Assembly (NCBI GenBank): GCA_963576725.1
Contig: OY755247.1
Location: 13,210,534 to 13,274,533, forward strand
Direction: 5' to 3'
DNA length: 64,000 nucleotides
Source of the DNA: Azorinus chamasolen
Taxonomy: Eukaryota > Mollusca > Bivalvia > Cardiida > Solecurtidae
Shown here: piece by piece, positions 1,294 to 61,969 of the stretch
Layout of the letters: each line of letters opens with the position of its first letter
Numbering within the stretch: the stretch's first letter is position 1
Translations under genes and position numbers: made by a program
The notes under the pieces: generated by a model
Databases searched by the model: none
Seen by the model: the letters and a program-made list of their open reading frames with translations, nothing else
What the model was told of the DNA's origin: nothing

Positions 1294-1840
1294 TATGAAG
1301 AACTATGTTATACCGTTTGAAAATATTACAAACTAGTTTGATCATGGAAACTCGCCAACAAAATCCCAAAATAAATATGTACCATAGGGAAATAGATATC
1401 TTGAGCCTTTCTTTTTGGCATAGCTATGGTAATTCTGTCTGCTTTGAGCTTTATTTCTATAGTAAACAACCCACAATGCATCACTGTAGCAACCAAGATG
1501 GCGGACATTATGCTGTAGCATCTCGCATACTAGGCCCTAAAATCGAGTGCATTTCAGCTAAACAAATAAATATGAGGATTAAAACATGCATGTGCCAAGT
1601 CAAGTAAGAAAAGATACAGCTTTCTAGCAAGTGAAACTGGAATGACAACACGATGCACAGTGTATTTCATCCTCTGTCTCTGGGGTCAGAAGTCGACGTA
1701 CATGAGTGCATCGCGGATGCTACAATATCATATGATATGCATGCCAAATATCAAATCTCTGTCTGTACTGGCTCAAAAGTTATGATCATTAATGTTAAAT
1801 TTGGTGACAAACAAACAAACAGAGTAGACACACAGAGCTC
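1294..1840. other. Intronic stretch without recognised gene
   Basis: No exon with plausible splice sites was seen. An AAGATGGCGGAC motif at 1496-1507 matches the YY1 consensus, but there is no neighbouring first exon to support a promoter. Confidence 0.3.
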
Positions 1841-2012
1841 TAGATAAGATGCGTACATTAAAACATTTTCAAGAATAAAATCGTCATTTCTCCACCAAAC
1901 CGTATGTCACCACTCTTTAGAATCGTCTCTTCCAAACCTTATACACACAGTATACGGTTTGGTGGAGAAATGACGATTTAAGTACTTGGGTATGCACCCT
2001 TATCTGTAGCTT
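1841..2012 (-). mobile_element. Palindromic MITE, CCACCAAACC family (Pal-2)
   Basis: The arms GTCATTTCTCCACCAAACCG and their reverse complement face each other at 1883-1905 and about 1951-1975. The outer ends (AGATAAGATGCG.. / ..GCACCCTTATCTGTAG) recur in the other copies of the family. The middle differs from the usual GAATCGTCTC hairpin tip. Confidence 0.65.
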
Positions 2013-2184
2013 TGGACACAGATCAGATGGTCCCTACAAGAGTCTCCTGATCAGGGTTTGCTCTGTTTTCTTGTGATGTCATTTAAATATGATTCTGCAG
2101 TTTCTTCCATGGTAAAATATTCTCTTGTTCATAATACAAAATAAAAATTCAGCTAATAAATATTCATACCATCATAACTTCTTA
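2013..2184 (-). mobile_element. TTAA MITE, type B, truncated
   Basis: It holds the B-type core (GATCAGATGGTCCCTAC ... GATCAGGGTTTGCTCTG) and the inner right arm (GATTCTGCAGTTTCT, AATATTCAT) but lacks its left end. It abuts the next MITE at TTAA. Confidence 0.5.
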
Positions 2185-2437
2185 TTAACCCTTTACTCCA
2201 TGAATGCTCATGTTAGAAATAATGATGTCATGAATATCAATTAAGTTATTTTTTACTATGGCATAATAACACAGGAATATTTTACTGAAGCAGAAACTGT
2301 AGAAACAGATCTATATTATTCCATAAGCAAACAGAGTAGACTCTGATCAGATGGCTCCTATAGGAGCCGTCTGATCTGGGTCTACTCTGTTTGCCAAGGC
2401 GTAGAAAGGCGTATGTATGGAGGAAATTTAGGGTTAA
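2185..2437 (+). mobile_element. TTAA MITE, type B (CCCTTTACTCCAT)
   Basis: It starts TTAACCCTTTACTCCATGAA and ends TTTAGGGTTAA, with TTAA at both borders. Inside are the imperfect hairpin AGAGTAGACTCTGATCAGATGG / CCGTCTGATCTGGGTCTACTCTGTTTGC and the GTAGAAACAGATCTATATTA segment typical of type B. TTAA flanks plus CCC-starting ends are the hallmark of piggyBac-type elements. Confidence 0.8.
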
Positions 2438-2456
2438 ATACTCATGTGGTAAAGGA

Positions 2457-2704
2457 TTAGCCCTTTACATAACGAACATTTACCGGTATGTAAGAATATG
2501 AACTAGATTAATTTTTATAATGACTCATGAACATGTGAATTTCTGGCTATCGCAGAAACTGTAGAATCAGACCTAAATTATTCGATAATCAAACAGAGCA
2601 GACCCAGATCAGATGGCTCCTACAGGAGATGGCTCCTACATCTGATCTGGGTCTACTCTGTTTGCAAAGGCATAGAAAAGCGTATTTATGGAGTAAAGAG
2701 TTAA
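2457..2704 (+). mobile_element. TTAA MITE, type B, loop duplicated
   Basis: The ends are TTAGCCCTTTAC and GGAGTAAAGAGTTAA. The hairpin tip carries a repeated GGAGATGGCTCCTACA, so the loop of this copy has been duplicated. Confidence 0.75.
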
Positions 2705-2859
2705 AAAAAACCCACAATAACTGCAATTGAACAACAGAGGTTTTCGTCACAAAAACTGGTGTCTCTCCCCCTCCCCCCCTCTCACACCCACATACCACAT
2801 ATCAGTAGAACAGGAGTTATTGATCAGACAAAGATGTAGAAAAGGGAAAACAGTATTAA

Positions 2860-3205
2860 AGACAGAGTTATGGCCCTTGTTCATGACACTTTCTCTCATC
2901 ATGCTCTTTCCATGTATGAAGTTTCAATCCAATGGTATGAAGTTTCAATCCAATGGCATGAGTCATATAGGAGTTATAGTCAAGACAAAAACTGTGATTT
3001 TTTTTTACAAGGGACAATATCTCCAATATTATTGAACCCAGAGTTATGGACCTTGTGCATGACACTTCCTCTCATTATGGTTTTTACATATATGGCATCA
3101 GACATATTGAAGTTATTGTCCGGACAATAAAGTGTGACGGACAGACAGACAGCTCTCATGAAAACAATATGTCTCCCCCATATAAATATGGGGGAGACAT
3201 AATAA
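2860..3205 (+). repeat. Dispersed non-coding repeat with GACGGACAGACAGA motif
   Basis: Degenerate repeated lines (AGAGTTATGG..CTTGT.CATGACACTTYCTCTCATYATG) occur twice, around 2866-2910 and 3050-3090. They are followed by a GACGGACAGACAGACAG tract and a 16-bp-arm palindrome ATGTCTCCCCCATATA / TATATGGGGGAGACAT at 3168-3201. A short direct duplication (GTATGAAGTTTCAATCCAATGG) lies at 2914-2957. There is no coding potential. Confidence 0.5.
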
Positions 3206-3219
3206 AGACATGACCCCAA

Positions 3220-3461
3220 TTATCCCTTCACTCCATGAATATTCACAAAAGAAATGATGACATCATGAATATTAAGTAATGTTTAAAAAGGCATATAAAC
3301 ACATGAATTGTTTGCCAAAGTAGAAACTGGAGAATCAGATCTATTATCATTTCATAAGCAAACAGAGCAGACCCTATTCAGATGGCTCCTATAGGAGCTG
3401 TTTGATTTCAGTCTACGGTTTGCCAAGGCATAGAAAAGTGAATTTATGGAGAAAAGGATTC
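3220..3461 (+). mobile_element. TTAA MITE, type B, worn
   Basis: It begins TTATCCCTTCACTCCATGAA and ends GGAGAAAAGGATTCA. The core AAACAGAGCAGACCCTATTCAGATGG and the B inner segment AGAATCAGATCTATTAT are present. The terminal TTAA tetranucleotides are mutated. Confidence 0.65.
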
Positions 3462-3504
3462 AAAAGCAATAAATGCGATTGAACAATAAAGATGAAGCAG
3501 ACAA

Positions 3505-3745
3505 AACCCAAATTATTCATATCCTTAACAGAGAAACAGATAATTAAATGCGTATACCAGTACATAGATTCTAAGATTGTCATTTTTCCACCAAACTCTA
3601 TGTTGTGACCACTCTTTAGAATCGTCTCATTTTTCCACCAAACTCTATGTTGTGACCACTCTTTAGAATCGTCTCAAAGAGACGATTCTAAAGAGTGGTC
3701 ACAGAATAGGGTTTGCCGGAGAGATAAAGAAGTTATTCTTGAAAA
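3505..3745 (+). mobile_element. Palindromic MITE, Pal-2 family, arm duplicated
   Basis: It carries the hairpin TTTTCCACCAAACTCTATG..GACCACTCTTTAGAATCGTCTC and its complement. The left arm (3581-3627) is repeated immediately at 3628-3674, giving an A-A-A' structure. The outer line ATTATTCATATCCTTAACAG also begins the next copy. Confidence 0.75.
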
Positions 3746-3746
3746 T

Positions 3747-3962
3747 GATCCCAATTATTCATATCCTTAACAGAGCAACAGATAATTAAGTGTGCATACT
3801 TAGATTCTAAGATTGTCATTTTTCCACCAAACTCTATGTTGTGACCACACTTTAGAATCGTCTCGTAGAGACAATTCTAAAGAGTGGTCACAACATAGGG
3901 TTTGCTGGAGAGATAAAGAAGTTATTCTTGAAAATGTTTTAATTTAGGCATCTTATCTGGAT
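3747..3962 (+). mobile_element. Palindromic MITE, Pal-2 family, tandem second copy
   Basis: This is a head-to-tail repeat of the preceding copy, beginning with the same CAATTATTCATATCCTTAAC line. It has single left and right arms and ends GGCATCTTATCTGGATCCC. Its end lies only about 20 nt from the 5' splice site of TMEM106 exon 3. Confidence 0.75.
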
Positions 3963-7755: not shown

Positions 7756-7984
7756 TTAACCCATTCCATCATAGGCTATTTTTAGACCCAACCTCTTTGA
7801 ATAAATCTACCGAAAAGGAGCATTCACTAGAGAAAAGGACATTTTTTAGAATTTTATAGTTCTGAAACCATTGTGATAAATAGAGCATTTGCTCCTTAGG
7901 AGCAAATGCTCTATTTATCACAGTGGTTTCAAGAAGTGACTATTACAGGGGCGTAGAAAGGCGTATTTATGGAGGAATGGATAG
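7756..7984 (+). mobile_element. TTAA MITE, type C (GAGCATTTGCTCC hairpin)
   Basis: The left end TTAACCCATTCCATCATAGG has a complement at GGAGGAATGG (final TTAA mutated to ATAG). The near-perfect hairpin TGTGATAAATAGAGCATTTG..CAAATGCTCTATTTATCACA has a 4-nt tip. The line CTCTTTGAATAAATCTACCG is conserved in all C copies. Confidence 0.8.
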
Positions 7985-8242: not shown

Positions 8243-8756
8243 TTAACCCTTTCCTTCATTCAGTAGTAAACACCTTTTCATGCATTTCAAACAGAGTAGA
8301 CCCAGATCAGATGGCTCCTATAGGAGACGTCTTTTTTGGGCCTATCAGATGTTAGAATATCAGATGTTAGAATCCAAATTGCTGGGTAAAAATTCATACT
8401 AAATATAGAAAAATAGTCAAACAGGGAGAGCCACATACAAAAAGACCCCGCACCAAACACCAAACAAGAAACGGCACAGCCGTAATACAAAACACAACAG
8501 GACGCATATCAAGACAAAAAACATTAAACATATTAAATAACAAAGCTGACCATAGGGTGAAAGCAGGAGTATCGCCTTGGAACGGTCAGTAGCCAAAAAA
8601 ATTCATCATATCAATACAATGAATTACTGTTATAATGAAATTGAAATTCACTATATCATATATCAGAGTTTTACCGGAACTATTGTAACTATTTTGTCCA
8701 TTAATATTCAATAGGTGTTGAAATTTGGAATAAACATAGAACAGGAAAAGAGTTAA
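8243..8756 (+). mobile_element. TTAA MITE, type A, split by a Penelope pLTR fragment
   Basis: It starts TTAACCCTTTCCTTCATTC and ends ACATAGAACAGGAAAAGAGTTAA. The left arm and hairpin (8285-8335) and the right arm (8680-8756) are separated by a Penelope-like terminal repeat (8397-8605) and flanking sequence. Its right TTAA is shared with the next MITE. Confidence 0.7.
8397..8605 (-). mobile_element. Penelope-like pLTR fragment, subfamily 2
   Basis: It closely matches 30208-30410: ATAGTCAAACAGGGAGAGCC, AGGACGCATATCAAGAC, TAGGGTGAAAGCAGGAGT and CGCCTTGGAACGGTCAG occur in the same order. At 30.2 kb this segment is the terminal repeat of a second Penelope-like copy, so here it is a solo truncated copy. 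Confidence 0.6.
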
Positions 8757-24330: not shown

Positions 24331-24361
24331 TAACTCTTTCAATATTGAATACTCGTGTAAA
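24331..24361 (+). mobile_element. Left end of a type B MITE split by a Penelope-like element
   Basis: TTAACTCTTTCAATATTGAA and TACTCGTGTAA match the left end of type B. The matching continuation AGAAATAACGACACCATGAA lies at 32704, on the far side of the Penelope-like element. Confidence 0.6.
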
Positions 24362-24553
24362 AGTACAAAAATGAGTCATGCAGGAAATACCACATACAGA
24401 ACAAACACTCGCCCGAACAGCAACACAAGGAAACAGCAAATGTAAAAAACAACAAGAGACGCACAAAGACAAAACAAACATACAATAGGAGGAAGATGGA
24501 AGTACCGCCTTGGAACGGTCAGTGACAAAAGTCACCGGGGGTTTAAACCGGTT
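24362..24553 (-). mobile_element. Penelope-like terminal repeat (pLTR, subfamily 1)
   Basis: This is the 3' terminal part of the Penelope-like element, separated from its body by a LINE. Read on the minus strand it has AAACCGGTTTAAACCCCCGG (which resembles a tRNA B box), GACCGTTCCAAGGCGG, and ends CTGCATGACTCATTTTTGTA. The final 35 nt also precede the coding region at 32670-32703, i.e. the same sequence occurs at both ends of the element. A near-complete solo copy lies at 33546-33747. Confidence 0.65.
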
Positions 24554-25320
24554 TAAGATAAGATAAGATAAGATAAGTTTTATTTAACGTCGGCAAGATA
24601 TATAACAAGCAACATAAGCCCTATTTGGGCTTTTGAACCGACAAGATAACAGTACATACATAGTGACAGCACATAGTCATAATCAGCATAATATTAAAAC
24701 ATAAATCTAATTTAAATACAGGCTAAAAATATATGATTTAGCTATGATACTAAGAAAGCTCTAAAACTATATCAGAGAGTAGGTGAAATCCTACTAAATA
24801 GCACACAGACTTATTATAAAACAAATTTATCAATTATAAATATCACAAGGATGGCCTGATAAGTTGTGTTTTTAAGTAAATGTAAAAGAAAAAATTCAAA
24901 TCAATGAGAGCCAAAGCTCAACAAAGAAAAGGAAATTAAAACATAAATACAAGCATACATTTTAAAACAAGCTGAGAATGAGTCAGCCCTGATACTAAGA
25001 ATTGATATAATACTCTTTAAGATCTGAAGCAAGTAGGATCACTATAGATTGCACACATACTCATATCACAAAGATATCACAAGGATGGCAAGATAAGCTA
25101 TGTATTTAGTATTGAATCAATGATAACGAATCTCAGCAAAGAAAAAAGAATTCAAAAGAGACCAGGCCTCTGTGGGACATTAAATAAGTACACGGAGAGT
25201 GATATATTATGTCACACAAGAGGAGTGGTTCTGCGTAATGTGTGCCCCTATCTATTCCTCTTACTCGAATATTAAAAACAAGCAGGCATTCATGTACGTA
25301 TAAGCAGCGGAAAAATGCAG

Positions 25321-25528
25321 TTAACCCTTTACCCGCCAAATACTTTTGCAAGAAAATTTGCCATCATCATATACCATAATCTGAATATGCATAAATTTGT
25401 TAGACATGAAATGAAAAATCATAGCATACACAACAAACTCTGATCAAAAGGTTCCTCAATGAGTCGTCTGACCTGGGTTTACACTATATGCAAATGCAAT
25501 AATAGGCATTTATGGGGAAAAAGGTTAA
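25321..25528 (+). mobile_element. TTAA MITE nested in the LINE 3' region
   Basis: It runs from TTAACCCTTTACCCGCCAAA to GGGGAAAAAGGTTAA. The worn core has ACAACAAACTCTGATCAAAA and GTCGTCTGACCTGGGTTTAC. Sequence of the LINE 3' UTR continues on both sides. Confidence 0.75.
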
Positions 25529-25790
25529 GCATATAAACATAGGGCAAGCATGGAATAGCATAGCAAGGCAAACAAGCAAAGTATTGCAACTTCAACATGG
25601 CAGTAATTTAAGCAGTCGGCATTCTACTAAGGTTCTAGAAGCACCAAATCACATAATAAGCAATGATACATATAAAGCACATTTTCTAAAGCAAACAAAA
25701 GCTGAAGTAAACATAAAGCAAATAAAATTGAACATGAACAGTAGGATACTAATTTGTTTTTCCAGCCCTGTGGAAGACAGTATATTAAAG

Positions 25791-28362
25791 CTATCCCACT
25801 TGAAAACGACATGCAGAGCATTTACAATTGTTCCCATCCCAAAAAGTTATTTGATTTTTGAACTGGTTAAATTCTGAGGTCTTTCTATAGTGATCTGGTA
25901 AGGAATTCCACAGGACTGGAGCTGCATATTTAAATGAATTCTTACCGTAAGTAGTTGTTTTAACACGAGGTACCTGTAACATATTTGAGTAACGAAAATT
26001 ATATCTGGTTTCTTTTTTTGAACAAGGTCTGATAGTACTGGAGGAGCTATTTCATTCAGAATTTTGAAGATTTCTATAGCCATAGTCCTGGTACGTCTAA
26101 TATGGAGAGCAGGCAGTTTGGCTTTTTCAAGAAGTAGTTCATATGAGTCAGTGTAATTTTCGTATACAAATCTCAGGGCTCTCTCTTGAATTTTCTCAAT
26201 CTTTCTAGTATTAGATTTTGAACAGAAATGCCAGGCCAGACTGCAGAAGTTAAAATTAGATAATACAAAGGTATGAAGTATAGTCAATCTACTCAGTTTA
26301 CATAGGTTCCTACCAATCCTCTTAAGGACATTTAGTTGTGTGGCTGATTTTCTGCAGATCCTTTGGATGTGATTATCAAAAGATAGTTTAAAGTCAATGT
26401 CAACACCCAATAAAGTCACAAGATCTTCACATTTAATATCAATACCACCTACTTTGAAAGCGGGAGATTTTGCATGGGTTTTCTTACCAATGGCTATTGC
26501 TTGGAACTTGTCAGGGTTTGCTTTCATACAATTAAAATGAAACCAGTCAATAAGAGCATTGCTTTCTTGCTGTAAAGTTAGCATTAAGGACTCAAAATTT
26601 GGACTGTGAAATGAAAGGGTGTTGTCATCAGCATAATTGTATAATGAGCATTTATCAATAAATAAAAATATATCATTTATAAAAATATTAAACAGAAGCG
26701 GCCCAATAATGGAGCCTTGTGGGACGCCTTTTGATATGTCTGCCCAATTGCTAACTATATTACCAATTTTTACCTGCTGTTTCCTTTTAGATAAGTAATT
26801 TGATATTAAATGTAATGCATTATCAGTTAGACCATAAGCAGAGAGTTTACATAACAAAATATCATGTGGCAGACAATCAAAAGCCTTCGACAAGTCCATA
26901 AGTATTGCAGCAACATATTCATTTTCATCTAGTGCACTTTTCCAGTCCTCAATCAATTTCAATAATGTAGTTTGGCATCCATGCCCTCTTCTAAAAGCAC
27001 ATAAGAAGTCATTAAAAATGTTGTCAAAATATGAGTAAAGCTGTTGTGAAATTACCTTTTCATAGATTTTTGAAGAATTTGGGAGGATACTGACTGGCCT
27101 GTAGTTAGATTTCAAGAGGGGGTCGTTTTTCTTAAACAAAGGAGTTACTTGAGCTTGCTTGAGGCGGTCTGGGAAAAAATCCACTAGATAAAGTAATATT
27201 AACAAGATTTGTAAAATGGGGAACTAGTGCCCTGTCACTAAGTTTCAAAACTTTAGCTGATATTTGGTCAACTCCAGTGGCCTTCTTTATGTGAAATTTC
27301 TGAATAATCTTGAAAATGCAGTTTTCGCTGACAGGGTTAAAATTAAAAGATCCATAGTTTAAGTTTCTCTCAGTTATTTTCATTATACTCGGATGGTTTT
27401 CTGGGTCAAAGATGTAATTTCTACCTATGTCATTTGCAACATTTGCATAAAAAGAGTTAAAAATATCTGTGACATCCTTCGAATTTGATATAACTTTGTC
27501 GTTTTCGGTTAAAATAATTTCCTGTTGTGTACTGACTGCTTTTTTTGACATGTATGGTTTAATTGTGCGCCAGAAATCAGTTGACTTACTGCCACCAGTA
27601 CATCTTTCCATGAAGTAATTATTTAGAGATTTTTTCTTTAACTTGTTGACATAATTTCTTTGCTGCCTGTATTTTTCCCAATGTTTTGAAGATCTAAACT
27701 TAGTATATCTATGATAGAGCATTTTCTTTGTCACAATGGCTTTCCTGAGAGTTTTATTCATGTATGGCAGTTGTTGTTTTTTTCTGTATCCATATTTTAT
27801 AGGTATGTGTCTGTCAATGACTTCAGTCATATCATTTTCGAAGGTGTCATAGATAGAATTTACTGCACTTTCATTCAGATTCTGGTTTGTATCTAATTTT
27901 ATTGCATGCAGATCATTAATAAAAGCATCATTATCGAAATTTCTAAAACTTCTATAAGAAAACTTCTGTTTCTCTGAGCATGGTGTAGAGTGATTTATTA
28001 TTAAGGAGATCATGTTATGGCAGTCACTTATCCCAGTAGGGAAATTCAACACATTCATGCACAGATTTTTAGAGTTGGTTAAAAACACATCAAGAAGTGA
28101 AGGTGTACAGTTTTTCTTAAAACAGGTGGCATTTTTAATCATGTTGTTCATGTCAAATAATTCACAAAAATCAGCTAAAGGTCTGCACTTAGTTTCAGAT
28201 AACATATCACAGTTTAAATCTCCAACAATAAAATAGTGGTCATATAATGTAATACATTTATCCAAGCACTTCTCAAGTGGAGGAAAGAAATCATTATGGT
28301 TTAAACTAGGTGGTCTATATACATGAATGAAGCACCATTTACTATTATTAAGAGTAACTTAT
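25791..28362 (-). pseudogene. LINE ORF2: endonuclease C-terminus plus reverse transcriptase
   Basis: The frame enters in the AP endonuclease (VYRPP near 28300, then FIVGDLNCDM), continues through the linker (28265-27180) and reaches the RT: YRPVSILP, DLSKAFDCLPHDILLCKL, GVPQGSIIGPLLFNIFINDI and YNYADDN (catalytic Asp pair). It ends with the SFKYAAPVLWNSLPDHYRK line and a CKCSACR terminus. Two frameshifts break it: one in an A6 run at 27172-27177 (between SSGFFP and DRLKQAQ), the other near 25985 before LQVPRVKTTTYG. Otherwise it is well kept, which suggests a fairly recent insertion. Jockey superfamily, CR1/L2-like by its 3' repeat; the exact clade needs a phylogeny. Confidence 0.85.
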
Positions 28363-28663
28363 GGGCGCCCAACCTCACCCTTATTCCATCCCCATCCTAA
28401 AAGACAAACAGTGTAAATAAACGTATCCCCTCTCCGACTAATCTACAACAACCGCGACAGCAAATACAGTGGTAAAGTGCATGTATAACAAAAAAACATT
28501 TAATTGAACATACTGTATCCACCTATCGCTAGTGTACTCAATGATTGAGCTGCAAACAGAGTAACTGTAGAAAAGTTATAAAGGGTACGACAAAAATGAA
28601 ATAGTACAGATATCCGACGTTCTCCTTCCATTTCTGGATTTAAGAGGTAGCCTTCATAGAGTA
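28363..28663 (-). other. 3' region of the Penelope-like element
   Basis: Downstream of the TAG at 28664-28666 one frame stays open for about 55 more codons (EGYLLNPEMEGERRISV.. to GGYSMFN, ending 28500). This may be the true C-terminus reached after a frameshift. The rest resembles the 3' region of the second copy at 30480-30620 (GTCGGAGAGGGGATACG versus GTCTGGAGGGGGAATTT; GAGGTTGGGYRCCCATAA in both). The only AUGA on this strand (about 28656) has a weak stem, so no SECIS could be confirmed. Confidence 0.45.
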
Positions 28664-30210
28664 CTAAACCTTTCTTGTCGGCGTACATGCAAAGAGGCCA
28701 GCGTGATTGCCAACTGTAAAAGGGTTCACAACCAAACATGCAGTATGTTGTAATAATACAGGATCATATCCCTTTTTAATGAATTGTTTTATATATTTGA
28801 TGAACAAAGTGAGAAAATGGGTATGTCCAATAATTCTACGAAGTTTGTAAATCACATCACCATAAAATTCAGGATGTGAAATACCGTGTCGCAAAAGTAC
28901 CTTGAGATTACATTTGTACTTGCCAATAAGCGAGAGATTTCGATAGTAAAATTTAGAGAAAGTTTTTCTTAGTTTATGGTATCTATATCCTTGTTTAAGC
29001 AGTTTTTCAGTTAAAATGAGATTTCGACTGTTAAAATCGTCAATAGATGAACAAGCTCTAGCAAAACGAATAAGTTGAGATATATAAACCCCGTAAGATG
29101 GAGCACGGGGAACATCCCCGTCAAGATGAGAAAAATTTACAATATTAAAATCAAAATCATCTCTTTTGTCATATATTTTAGAAGAAATCATTCCATTATT
29201 AATTTTAAGGTCTAGGTCAAGAAACGCTGCATAATTGTCGGACGGGTTAGCTTTATTCAATTTGAGTTCTTTAGGATAAATTGTAGGAATCAGAGCATTA
29301 AAGAAAGGGTTATCTAAGTTAAAAATATCATCCAAATATCGACAAGTATCATTGAAGGCTTTTATAACATCTTCTTGTGATTGAGGATTCAAACTCAACA
29401 TGAAATCTCTCTCATAGCAGTACAAAAACAAATCTGCGACAAGTGGTGCACAATTCGTACCCATGGGAATACCAATTACCTGACGGTATATAGCATTCCC
29501 ATAACGTACAAATATGTTATCCAAAAGAAAGGTTAGTGCTTCGCAAACTTCTGAGCAAGTCCAATTGGTGTAATATTTCATTTGCTCGTCAGTAAAGAAA
29601 GCTTTTTCAGCATTACATGCCAAGAACGATGTTTTTTCTCGGGCAAATACTTTCTGGATCAAGCTAGTAAGCTTATCCTTAATTAAAATATGAGGAAGAG
29701 TTGTGTACAGAGCAGAAAAATCGTAAGTGCTTACAGTGGATGCAAGATACCTTTTGTTCTTAAGTTTGTTTAAGACTTCTGAAGAGTTCTTAATAGACCA
29801 GAAGAGATTTATTCCAGAATTTTCATAAGTCTTATCACAGTAAAATTTTACATGTTCCTTTACCTTCGTTAAACAAGAAGTCAAAAGTATAGACAATTTA
29901 GTAGTTGTACATGAACTAGAATTTGCAATGAAACGCGCTTTATATGGTTTTTATGTAGTTTTGGTAACCAATACATAGTAGGAAGTTTATGTTGTGTAAT
30001 TTTAATATCGGTTCCAAATTGTTCACACTTTTTGACATGGTCTGAAATGATGGTCTTTTCGTCAGTGGTAACTGAAATGTATGACTTGGTATTAGTAATT
30101 TCCTGCTTCAAGACATCGATATAATGTAATCGTCAAATAATAATCACATTATTTGATGCCTTATCAGCAGGAACAAAAACGTATTTGGAATGGAAATCCT
30201 GTAAATTTAA
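28664..30210 (-). pseudogene. Penelope-like reverse transcriptase
   Basis: The segment opens with FHSKYVFVPADKASNN and continues IIII-TGA-RLHYIDVLKQE, YWLPKLHK, then (frame changed by one base near 29945) RFIANSSSCTTTKLS. STYDFSALYTTLP follows at residues 56-68 of the 29896 frame, GIPMGTNCAPLVADLF at 142-157, the catalytic RYLDDIF at 186-192, and AAFLDLDL. These are the telomerase-related RT motifs of Penelope-like elements, with the YLDD box in place of the usual LINE YADD. The C-terminal TACLVVNPFTVGNHAGLF line is typical of the bivalve family. The frameshift looks like loss of one C from a CCC run. The TGA at 30133-30135 stands where relatives have Cys. Confidence 0.85.
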
Positions 30211-30717
30211 TATGGAAAAATAGTCAAACAGGGAGAGCCACACACGGAATGACACCGCATCAAACACCATCTAACGAGAAACGATAAAGCCACAAGACAA
30301 AACAAAACAGGACGCATATCAAGACGAAACACATTAAACATTAAGCATATTAAAAAACAAAATTGACCGTAGGGTGAAAGCAGGAGTGCCGCCTTGGAAC
30401 GGTCAGCAGCCAAAAGCAATAAAAAAATTGGCTACTGGGGGACTTGAACCTGGTTTATGGGTACCCAACCTCGTCCTTATCCCACTTTCACCGAAGTCAA
30501 AATGTAAAAAAAATTCCCCCTCCAGACAACACCACAACATGCGTAACGATGTATGCCAAAATGAAAATGATTTGAAAATGAACGTTATTAGAAGTAAACA
30601 AGCGACGTCATCATGTAAATGACGTCATAATTTAAAAGTACGGGAAAACAATTTGAAACACTTCTACTGCGACATTTAAAAGATCAATCGCAAGAAAATA
30701 CAATTACCAGTGGATAT
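30208..30717 (-). mobile_element. Second Penelope-like copy, 3' end only, nested
   Basis: In the same orientation as its host it contains a 3' region (GTGGTGTTGTCTGGAGGGGG, GGATAAGGACGAGGTTGGGT) and a terminal repeat (AACCAGGTTCAAGTCCCCC, GCTGACCGTTCCAAGGCGGC .. CTCCCTGTTTGACTATTTTT). It breaks the host frame between NSCV-TGA and LQDFHSKY. TAA stops inside it are absent from the flanking host frame. Its upper border is uncertain (30640-30717). It includes a small palindrome ATGACGTCAT..ATGACGTC near 30610. Confidence 0.6.
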
Positions 30718-30720
30718 TAA

Positions 30721-31101
30721 TCATACACAACTGTTTTGTTTGCAAAAGAATAAACTTGACATCATTTTAAGATGTCTAAATGAAGTTCTAGGTTTAGGTG
30801 GAAGAAGGTGTTTATTAGAGCTGTAAAAGGAAATGCGTTTATCAATTATATCAAAAATTAGTTTTTTCCAACAAGAAAGGGCAGTAGACTCAACATGTTC
30901 TCTTCGACACCATTTAATACTAAAATTTTGTAAAGCCTCCGCAATCTGAACTCGACAAGAGTTAAAATCTATCAAGGATGGTATTCTATATTTGGGACCT
31001 TTATTCATAAGAGATCGTAGACGTTTATCTTTAATTATCTCAAAATTACCAGTAATCACATGACCAGCCGGAGAATAGCAAACTTTTGAGGTGGCGCAAT
31101 C
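30721..31101 (-). pseudogene. Penelope-like linker and RT N-terminal region
   Basis: After the TGA at 31102-31104 the frame reads DCATSKVCYSPAGHVITGNF, then RLRSLMNKGPKYRIPSLIDF, WCRREHVE and PPKPRTSFRHLKMMSSLFFC, and stops at the TGA 30721-30723. The GPKYR-P line and the basic segment after it are the N-terminal RT region of Penelope-like elements. The TGA-D-C start occupies the position of the CxC motif that links nuclease and RT in Naiads. Confidence 0.75.
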
Positions 31102-31104
31102 TCA

Positions 31105-32409
31105 ATTATCAGGAATATTATCATTAATATTAAGGTCGGCCACAATTTTATTATAGTTGAAAATTGTATTTCTGATGGGTTTGTTATATTTGTAGCAGAT
31201 GATAGGTGGTTCTGTATTTTTAAAGTATTTAGGAATAGTGTCAATTACATTTTTGTCTCTAAAAATACTTTGGAGGTCAATAAAATCAATACCTTTATTA
31301 ATAAAAGGAATTTTCGAGAAGAATCTTTGGTGTTCAGATGATTTGTCGATGTGCGGTCTGAGAACATGTAGAGTAAAGCTTTGTATCAAACTAGCCGTTC
31401 CTATGAGAGGATCTGATCGAAAAATAATTTTATCGGCTTGCTCGTCAATTTCTTTTAATGAACATATAGATAAGGAGGAAAGTCTAGAAAGCATGGCATG
31501 TTTACCCGAAATTAGGCGTAAAGTATGTAGATCAAGAAGAGTCAATTTCAAACGAGGTTTTCGTTTAATATTACCATTCTTGCGAATGCCATGCGATCGA
31601 GATTTGCGTTTTCTAATAGAAAAAAATGAAAAAATATCTATATCTGGTTCTTTTGAAATATTTCCAGTCTGGTAAATATTATCATTCAGTCCTAAAGGAA
31701 AAGGTGTTTGCAATTTTTTGATCCAATTTAATTCAGATATAAATCTAGCTTTCGATTTAAAGCTACTAGTCGCCTCCTTATCATATGTTATATGCTCAAC
31801 AATTTGTACTAAAACATCTTTAAAAGAATGGCCAGATTTCCGAAAGTGTTGGTATAAAAAATTGTTTAGTTTACGATTTCGACACTGATATGCATGCTCA
31901 CGAAATCGAGTTTTCAAAGCACGTCCTGTTTGTCCTACGTACTGTATACCGCAACTAGGCGCGTTTCAAGTTAAAACATAAATAACGTTAGTGGTAGTAC
32001 AATCAACGTCTGAGTTTATCTTGACATTAAATGTTCTACCATTAACTGTAGATTTTATAGTGGAATTACAAGAAATGTTATTACAACATATGCACCTCTT
32101 AGCAAAGCACTTTTGGATAATTGGATACACTCTGTGTCGCCTGCATAAGGACCGTTTACGAATAGAAGAAACATTTTGGATAACAGATTTTAAAGGTGAA
32201 AGTACAACTCTTGGTCCATTGAAAAAACATTTATTAATAGAAAGAGATGGTATGTGAAAAGATGAAGCCGACTGAAGATGAAGTTGTTTTAAACGAACAA
32301 AAGGTTGAAGGGAAGAGAAATTAGAAATATTTCTGGGTACTTGTACAGACGACACAGATTGCATATTTAAAGCTTTTAGTTCTATTCGAGGTATTTTAAC
32401 TTTATTCAT
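31105..32409 (-). pseudogene. Penelope-like N-terminal GIY-YIG endonuclease region
   Basis: One frame runs from 32409 to 31105, broken only by the TGA at 31966-31968. It has a basic, Cys-rich lead (KRCICCNNISC), then DCTTTNVIYVLT-TGA-NAPSCGIQYVGQTGRALKTR, FREHAYQCRNR and HFRKSGHSF. CGIQYVGQTGR is the GIY-YIG catalytic line. The second Cys (in PSC) and the two His fit the CCHH motif of Penelope nucleases, and the TGA replaces the first Cys. ELNWIKKLQTPFPLGLNDNI closes the domain. A likely upstream part (GRKKSPRTRNRCC, CHAPRGRCCVHQQFDALG) lies in another frame at 32450-32650 and carries one TAA. Confidence 0.8.
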
Positions 32410-32669
32410 ATTGGAAAGTGATAGAGGGGCACCTGTATTGTGTTCATCAACACGTCAATTACATTAGTGTAGCTACCAAGTGCATCAAATTGTTGGTGAA
32501 CACAACACCTACCACGAGGTGCATGACATACTTATGATGATGTAAGAGGCGAATGAGAGTTGTGTATGTTACTTGCATATCCTGCAAGAGAATGATAACA
32601 ACATCGATTACGTGTACGGGGAGACTTTTTACGGCCACCACACGGCACAAGCAACACTGTTGTGATAAT
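32410..32669 (-). pseudogene. Penelope-like N-terminus, other frame
   Basis: The lines VPCGGRKKSPRTRNRCCYHS and VCHAPRGRCCVHQQFDALGS read in the frame one base off from the nuclease frame, separated by a TAA (32532-32534). They join near 32450 (TNVIDV / DEHNTGAPLS). Coding character is suggested by smooth continuation across the shift. Confidence 0.45.
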
Positions 32670-32703
32670 AAAAGTATAAAAATGAGTCATGCAGGAAATA
32701 CCA

Positions 32704-32900
32704 CATAAGAAATAACGACACCATGAACATGTATTACAGTAGATCTGATTGAAATTGAAAATGGTATATAAAAACAGTTGTTTTGGCATTGGAAGAACAG
32801 TAGAGTCTGTAAGCAACCCTAGAATACCCTGAGCAGATGGTCCCTACATGAGCCGCTGGTTCTGGTTCTACTCCGTTTACAAATGTGTAAGGGTTTGTAT
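32704..32900 (+). mobile_element. Type B MITE, right part beyond the Penelope-like element
   Basis: AGAAATAACGACACCATGAA resumes the arm begun at 24331. Then come a worn core (GAGCAGATGGTCCCTACATG..TTCTGGTTCTACTCCGTTTA) and GTGTAAGGGTTTG. Confidence 0.55.
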
Positions 32901-33379: not shown

Positions 33380-33912
33380 CTAAAATGACGACTTCAGTAT
33401 TTGGGTACACCGTTATCTGTAGCTCTGTAAAATAAAAATTGAGAAATCTGAAAATCAAAATACCTATAGATGATGATAGGTCTTGGAAAATCAAAGTATA
33501 AGAGAGACTGCAGAGCTACAGATTAAGGTGCCCACCCAAATACTAAAAGTACAAAAATGAGTCATGCAGGAAACACCACATACAGAACAAACAGTCGCCC
33601 GAACAGTAACACTAGGAAACAGCAATTGTACATAATTATAAAAACATCAAGAGATGCAAAAAGACAAAACAAACATACAATAGGGAGAAGATGGAAGTAC
33701 CGCCTAGGAACGGTCAGTGACAAAAGTCACTGGGGGTTAAACCAGTCGCCATTTCTCCACCAAACCCCATACTGTTACCACTCTTTAGAGCCATCTCTTC
33801 GAAATGATTCTAAAGAGAAATGCCACAATATAGGGTCTGGTGGAGAAATGAAGGAGCTATTCTGAAATATTTATTACCTTAAATTGTCTTATCTGGACCT
33901 CTGGATTGAACA
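33380..33912 (+). mobile_element. Pal-2 MITE with inverted flank, split by a pLTR
   Basis: A main copy (from about 33505) has GAGCTACAGATTAAGGTG, CCCAAATACTAAAA, then the pLTR, then CGCCATTTCTCCACCAAACC..CTCTTCGAAATGATTCTAAA and TTGTCTTATCTGGACCTCTG. An inverted partial copy of its outer end lies at 33390-33435. Confidence 0.65.
33546..33747 (-). mobile_element. Penelope-like terminal repeat, solo, subfamily 1
   Basis: It is nearly identical in order and sequence to 24362-24553 (AAAAATGAGTCATGCAGGAA, ACAGTCGCCCGAACAG, GGAAGTACCGCCTAGGAACG, GGTCAGTGACAAAAGTCACT). It is inserted in a Pal-2 MITE between ATACTAAAA and TCGCCATTTC. Confidence 0.7.
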
Positions 33913-42204: not shown

Positions 42205-42420
42205 GAGTTGATAGAGTAAAACCTCTCTTAACCGGCAGTTAAATTTAGTATGAATATCGGTCTTGGAGACAGGTGGCAGCTTAATGCAGAGTGAAAGTCA
42301 TGCAGAAAGCTCCTAGAGGAGCTTTCTGCATGACTTTCACCCTGCATTAAGCAGCCACCAGCCTAAGAGTATCTAAATTATTATCTACTAGAATTCCGGT
42401 TAAGAGAGGTTATACTGTAC
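42205..42420 (+). mobile_element. TA-type palindromic MITE, complete
   Basis: The ends AGTAAAACCTCTCTTAACCG and CGGTTAAGAGAGGTTATACT are inverted. The centre CATGCAGAAAGCTCCTAGAG / GAGCTTTCTGCATGACTTTC is nearly perfect. Confidence 0.85.
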
Positions 42421-61776: not shown

Positions 61777-61969
61777 ATCTGGGCCCATGCATATAAAGCT
61801 TTTAGTTGAGTCTGAGTACGTTCTCAAGCTTTTGATTGGTCAGATTTGAGCCTCTGGCTCAAATCTGACCAATCAAAAGCTTGAGAACTCAAATCTGACC
61901 AATCAAAAGCTTGAAAACGAAACTCAAACTCAACTAAAAGCTTTATAAGCATGGACCCAGGCTACAATT
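61777..61969 (+). mobile_element. Long near-perfect palindrome with internal repeat
   Basis: GGGCCCATGCATATAAAGCT..TTTTAGTTGAGT faces ACTCAACTAAAAGCTTTATA..AGCATGGACCC. Inside, CTCAAATCTGACCAATCAAA (with AGCTTGA) occurs twice on this strand and once inverted. Confidence 0.75.

Follow-up and report, generated by a model that had tools for sequence, protein, structure and literature searches.

Layout of the window copy

The window analyzed here, a 64,000-nucleotide stretch of the Azorinus chamasolen genome (contig OY755247.1, positions 13,210,534 to 13,274,533), appears to hold on its minus strand a young Penelope-like retrotransposon of the Naiad type in one damaged copy; the only open reading frame (ORF) of the element, 1,063 codons long, is predicted to encode a selenoprotein with three selenocysteine (Sec) residues. 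We assign this reading, which rests on sequence comparison, a probability of about 0.93. The copy was mapped against the 3,961-bp tandem unit of locus L036, which belongs to an array on contig C19. Its parts, with evidence for each, are as follows (RT, reverse transcriptase; UTR, untranslated region; SECIS, Sec insertion sequence).

32410..32711, minus strand: leader of the copy (unit 3703-3961) and the terminal bases of a unit upstream of it (unit 3659-3702); 99.3% identity to the L036 unit
30765..32409, minus strand: ORF part 1, codons 1-548, with the N-terminal region, the CCHH/GIY-YIG nuclease region and the CxC linker; 99.45% identity to the unit
31966..31968, minus strand: TGA codon 148, predicted Sec, where the CCHH motif has its first Cys; from copies and families
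31102..31104, minus strand: TGA codon 436, predicted Sec, at the first position of CxC; from copies and families
30133..30135, minus strand: TGA codon 574, predicted Sec, in the RT N-terminus (NNVIII-U-RLHY); from copies, families, and homologues that stop or show W or C there
28359..30205, minus strand: ORF part 2 (RT) and the first part of the 3' UTR, unit 1650-3497; 99.62% identity to the unit
28664..28666, minus strand: TAG stop that ends the frame, codon 1064 in the family; from frame reading
28602..28666, minus strand: SECIS-type hairpin, with the stop codon as the first three bases of helix 1; from Rfam, fold and covariation
24358..24555, minus strand: 3' end of the element, unit 3495-3702; 95.2% identity to the unit

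With TGA read as Sec, the GIY-YIG domain in ORF part 1 is matched by Pfam at 23.9 bits (cut-off 22.6). From the ATG at 32409 on, the element codons include no TAA or TAG ahead of the TAG at 28666-28664, in agreement with an earlier note on this DNA, which had described the frame as broken by TGA and never by TAA or TAG. The note had placed four TGAs in the element; all four coordinates are correct and three of these codons belong to it, whereas the fourth (30721-30723) lies inside a foreign insert, insert 1. Its placement of the three TGAs at Cys positions is borne out by homologues that carry C at 148, 436 and 574. An upstream TAA that it had taken as decay stands 5' of the ATG of the family, in the presumed untranslated leader, and thus does not indicate decay.

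Conservation of the TGA codons among copies and families

Searches of the same genome (1.72 Gb, 137 contigs) scored the best candidates only, namely 40 of 2,822 in the DNA search and 100 of 13,813, 54 of 39,362, 48 of 28,107 and 48 of 37,856 in the others, and the resulting counts therefore favor well-kept copies. The DNA search with the N-terminal part of the element scored the window itself and 39 other matches, and the 20 longer copies among the latter were taken for full reading. All 20 carry TGA at codons 148, 436 and 574. In 14 of them there are exactly three TGAs, followed by TAG at codon 1064 and with no other stop, so that the GIY-YIG domain lies N-terminal to the RT within one 1,063-codon frame; on average, any two of these 14 full-frame copies differ at 10.2 of 3,192 bases. 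The remaining six show frameshifts, an indel or further stops. For instance, L045 and L049 have an extra TGA at codon 936, where intact copies have TCA. In a reading of 30 loci, L030 has a private TAG at codon 529.

Stops were also counted in protein searches of the same genome. One TGA was counted in each of 100 scored matches of the first search, and two in 53 of the 54 scored matches of the second (three in the other one), with no TAA or TAG in either set. The P0202 search (48 scored) yielded two TGAs in each match and one TAG in 47 of the 48. In the match at C13:37167104-37169638, which is the same copy as L047, this TAG is the terminal stop and the last codon of the match; the TAG in the other matches, 46 of which end at query positions 845-847, is taken to be the terminal stop too, and the match at C8:89658359 extends to 859 and carries a TAA as well. 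By the first of these protein searches, family A, to which the window copy belongs, occupies at least 100 well-kept places in this genome.

The ends of the copies agree with the element type. Nineteen of the 20 longer copies have their end between unit positions 3699 and 3708, and L036 runs on in tandem. An upstream match ending at unit position 3961 was found in all 20; in 17 it extends back beyond the 3' end of the element, and in L034, L040 and L052 it covers no more than part of the leader. A truncated upstream unit in tandem is the pseudo-LTR (long terminal repeat) layout of Penelope-like elements, and the upstream matches in 20 of 20 copies conform to this feature of Naiads. At G000:C19:7148115-7173524, near-identical units form a head-to-tail array with a spacing of about 3,961 bp, and smaller tandems occur elsewhere.

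A search with the distant Cys-type protein P0220 (48 scored of the 28,107 candidates) identified matches with four TGAs in 46 cases, three in one and five in one, and with TAA or TAG in none. Eight of these loci were read and constitute two further families, B (seven loci) and C (L075). Family B has TGA at the equivalents of codons 137, 148, 436 and 574 in all seven loci; L076 carries one TGA more, and in L079 and L081 the frame shifts late. Family C has TGA at 148, 436 and 574. The 1,063-codon frame is present in one copy each of families A, B and C, which share 69-72% pairwise amino-acid identity. At site 137, TGA in family B stands against TGT in families A and C, which, as read from the codons, is a Sec/Cys exchange between families. 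Thus, the three TGA columns are kept as TGA and are not private to the window copy; because they are common to 20 of 20 longer copies and to three diverged families, the TGAs exceed chance.

The synonymous divergence (dS) between families is 1.9-2.4 overall and saturated in parts, and the ratio of nonsynonymous to synonymous divergence (dN/dS), obtained by a simple Nei-Gojobori count and to be read with this partial saturation, is 0.08-0.11 overall. After codon 574 the ratio is 0.10 for A-B and 0.08 for B-C; for A-C it is not computable, as dS is saturated. These values show purifying selection on either side of each TGA, including beyond the last.

Homologues in protein databases

P0001 has 140 database homologues, the best 120 of which were aligned; 34 of the 120 show no motif at site 574. 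The database consists of predicted ORFs and is therefore enriched for copies that lost the stop, and residues rather than codons were compared. Among the 86 homologues that reach site 574, 58 stop precisely at it, 14 show W, 13 show C and the frame of one is broken. Site 436 is C in 77, W in 29, S in two and L in one of 109 homologues; site 137 is C in 11, W in six and L in one of 18; and site 148 is C in 12, W in four and another residue in three of 19. At the Cys columns 153, 405, 438, 485 and 501, W was counted 0, 0, 1, 2 and 0 times, respectively, and at column 106 in one of 18. This pattern of C, W and stop points to TGA, since TGA is the only stop codon one step from both TGG and TGY. 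The in-frame UGAs of the element thus align with Cys in homologues, as in other selenoproteins. The Cys/Sec columns 137, 148, 153 and 436/438 align in the 120 homologues, and both the CCHH motif, the two His of which were read by eye, and the CxC linker are accordingly recognized.

The RT part has 4,636 protein homologues, and of the best 120, which were aligned, 21 begin right after site 574, four have C there, two have W, and 93 begin later or elsewhere. The Cys-type relatives, such as P0220 and P0230, run through the TGA points as one protein. The AlphaFold2 model of P0220 (mean predicted local distance difference test score 80.8) has telomerase (7trd_A, E 1.8e-9) as its top Foldseek match in the PDB; the relatedness of the RT to telomerase expected of a Naiad was thus found on this relative rather than on the window copy. 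Scans of viral contigs found no relative. One partial, distant Naiad-like RT fragment lies on a contig of a bacterial metagenome-assembled genome (L003, Candidatus Thioglobus); it is uninformative for codons or SECIS and is probably host DNA in a bacterial bin.

A SECIS-type hairpin at the stop codon

The Rfam model SECIS_1 (cut-off 35 bits) matches the window at 28665-28603 on the minus strand with 23.0 bits; at E<=10 it has no other match in the 64 kb of the window. Other family A copies score 26.0 bits in three of three scanned, family B scores 23.2 bits, and family C reaches 36.8 bits, above the cut-off and with an E-value of 1.2e-4 over all 4,227 families. The hairpins of all three families start at the stop codon. 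Helix 1 opens with the three bases of the terminal UAG or UAA, the last of which forms a G-C pair in family A, G-U in B and A-U in C; in family C, helix 1 lacks its outermost pair. The exact family A hairpin was found in 38 of 40 loci, with L055 and L071 deviating (the 3' core of the latter, a family A row, is UGAU) and with L048 counted via its upstream piece, a single base being different in its own 3' copy.

Covariation was assessed on six rows chosen by hand (three of family A, two of B and one of C) over 19 pairs, i.e., 114 cells. Of the cells, 95.6% pair, and changes on both sides affect six of the 19 pairs, distributed over the three helices. Neither the covariation score nor the percentage paired was reached by any of 500 shuffles, and alignments of the hairpin that were slid fall to 40-52% paired. 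RNAfold returns the expected form for families A and B (z -2.4 and -2.9) and does so more weakly for the window copy (z -1.6). A SECIS-type structure is therefore present in relatives of the window copy, as the selenoprotein reading of the earlier note had implied, and the assignment of this hairpin as SECIS is carried by the family C score together with the covariation.

Several observations weigh against a SECIS and hence against the selenoprotein reading. The scores of family A (26.0), family B (23.2) and the window copy (23.0) lie below the cut-off of 35, and an Rfam scan of 20 family A copies at the gathering level gave no match. Of 500 shuffles, 18 have as many pairs with changes on both sides and 429 as many further pair types, and the covariation comes from six rows in three families only. 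The best RNAfold structure for family C is an alternative that pairs the core bases (z -2.9). Finally, the 3' core is GGAU in family A, AGAC in B and AGAU in C, which keeps the GA and lacks the U that usually precedes it.

Host machinery and alternative explanations

The genome encodes a tRNA-Sec gene at C15:42628169-42628254, with a score of 80.7 bits (cut-off 47); the two matches ranked below it score 47.2. ARAGORN likewise calls the top match tRNA-SeC with anticodon TCA, and the runner-up that was checked is tRNA-Ser. It is through this tRNA-Sec gene that the host is credited with Sec machinery.

Three other explanations of the TGAs were weighed. The one that survives best, although we regard it as very unlikely, is that UGA is recoded without Sec, being read as Trp or another residue through ordinary suppression. 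It draws on the Trp found in homologues (29 of 109 at site 436, 14 of 86 at 574, six of 18 at 137 and four of 19 at 148); however, Trp is equally expected from TGA-to-TGG changes in databases that keep open frames only. Moreover, the more distant relatives carry Cys (13 of 86 at site 574), one site alternates between TGA and TGT among families, and a SECIS-type hairpin is present, all of which argue against this explanation. Even less credible is that the UGAs are true stops and that the element yields several separate polypeptides. Databases do list the pieces as separate predicted proteins, but the breaks would interrupt the CCHH motif, CxC and a conserved RT stretch, across which the Cys-type relatives P0220 and P0230 are continuous; besides, true stops would be free to vary among TGA, TAA and TAG, whereas the three own-genome stop counts (100, 54 and 48 scored matches) show TGA alone. 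The least plausible is random decay, with the TGAs as nonsense mutations of a dead copy that by chance hit Cys codons: the window copy is indeed broken by two inserts and a frameshift, and additional stops or frameshifts occur in six of the 20 longer copies, but we rejected this explanation as contradicted by the three TGAs in 20 of 20 longer copies and in two further families with synonymous sites near saturation, and by private decay stops that differ from them (TGA 936, from TCA, in L045 and L049; TAG 529 in L030).

The selenoprotein reading is thus preferred. The earlier note had reached it too and had placed Sec use, as probable, in an ancestor of the copy; the near-identity of the 14 full-frame copies suggests instead that the family probably still uses Sec today.

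Proposed mechanism and relation to known systems

In the proposed mechanism, the hairpin in the mRNA would recruit the SECIS-binding machinery of the host, and ribosomes would insert Sec at UGA 148, 436 and 574 (at four UGAs in family B) and terminate at the UAG or UAA of codon 1064; the full nuclease-RT protein would then serve transposition. If Sec were lacking, translation would halt at codon 148, and most of the GIY-YIG domain would not be made. Of the three residues, Sec 148 would stand in for what is presumably a ligand of zinc next to the nuclease, Sec 436 would make a U-x-C motif, and Sec 574 would sit in the RT N-terminus. A more tentative extension, which we hold to be possible but doubtful, is that the stop codon built into the SECIS physically couples Sec insertion with termination, as termination would require the ribosome to melt the SECIS, and that mobility is gated by the selenium supply of the host, since the first UGA precedes most of the nuclease domain.

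Craig, Yushenova, Rodriguez and Arkhipova (2021, Mol Biol Evol 38:5005) reportedly described selenoproteins with several Sec residues encoded by Naiads of spiders and clams. Sec-coding Naiads are in this respect a kind already known, and the assignment of the present families to it is well supported. The elements described here share with the clam and spider Naiads the permuted order of N-terminal GIY-YIG, CxC linker and RT, the pseudo-LTR and several UGAs at Cys positions. A stop codon that lies within a SECIS helix, and three diverged Sec families (with three, four and three UGAs) in one genome, are not known to have been reported in that work. With the SECIS of eukaryotic selenoprotein mRNAs (Rfam RF00031, SECIS_1) the hairpin shares AUGA, an unpaired AAA, two helices and the 3' GA, whereas it starts at the stop codon and has G or A in the 3' core where U is usual. 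SECIS elements inside coding regions have precedents; the stop codon as the foot of a SECIS helix is a less familiar feature. A literature search for a SECIS sharing bases with a stop codon found nothing on the subject, as judged by titles in a limited library. A search for Sec in Naiad or Penelope-like elements, judged by titles only, found no paper on that subject; the reference list of PMC11167929 includes the 2021 work (Craig et al., 2021). The likeness of the P0220 model to telomerase RT, its best PDB matches, is expected for Penelope-like RTs, with TM-scores of about 0.3 and 12% identity; telomerase, in contrast, has neither a GIY-YIG nuclease nor Sec.

An animal normally has few selenoprotein genes, which belong to the host and are conserved. 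At least 100 well-kept multi-Sec frames, those that were read being followed by a SECIS at the 3' end, would represent a large unannotated potential demand for Sec. The families also offer natural replicates of Sec/Cys exchange (site 137), of SECIS evolution and of the decoding of multiple UGAs. Gene callers split such elements at the UGAs, as seen in the database pieces.

Damage and neighboring features of the window copy

The window copy is damaged, as the earlier note had stated, by insert 1, by insert 2 in its 3' part and by a one-base gap that breaks the frame in the RT part. The foreign and related segments are as follows.

30206..30764, strand not applicable: insert 1, foreign to the element, carrying the TGA at 30721-30723; other copies lack an insert at that point
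24556..28358, minus strand: insert 2, LINE-like (long interspersed nuclear element), foreign to the element, with ORFs at 27132-28265 and 25847-27205; breaks the unit at position 3497/3495
33540..33743, minus strand: related 3'-end fragment upstream (unit 3501-3706); 90.3% identity to the unit

In all 39 other scored copies the match to the window, with 99-100% identity over 32409-30765, stops at 30765, and therefore insert 1 begins at 30764. It is 559 bp long and adds a net 555 bases; because this number is a multiple of three, the frame resumes in register past the insert by accident. The same frame inside it also holds TAA and TAG (codons 578 and 582 in the L004 reading). A part of insert 1 (207 nt, window 30206-30415) recurs at window 8402-8598 with 84% identity and, by eye, contains a tRNA-like B-box string, perhaps of a short interspersed nuclear element. 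The two ORFs of insert 2, on the minus strand in the 3' UTR of the element, resemble by eye a LINE endonuclease and RT. The upstream fragment at 33540..33743 possibly represents the remains of an older or upstream copy. Elsewhere in the window, models of microRNA families match below cut-off at 7863-7931, 42282-42349 and 61818-61924, partly on both strands, and these are probably palindromic repeats.

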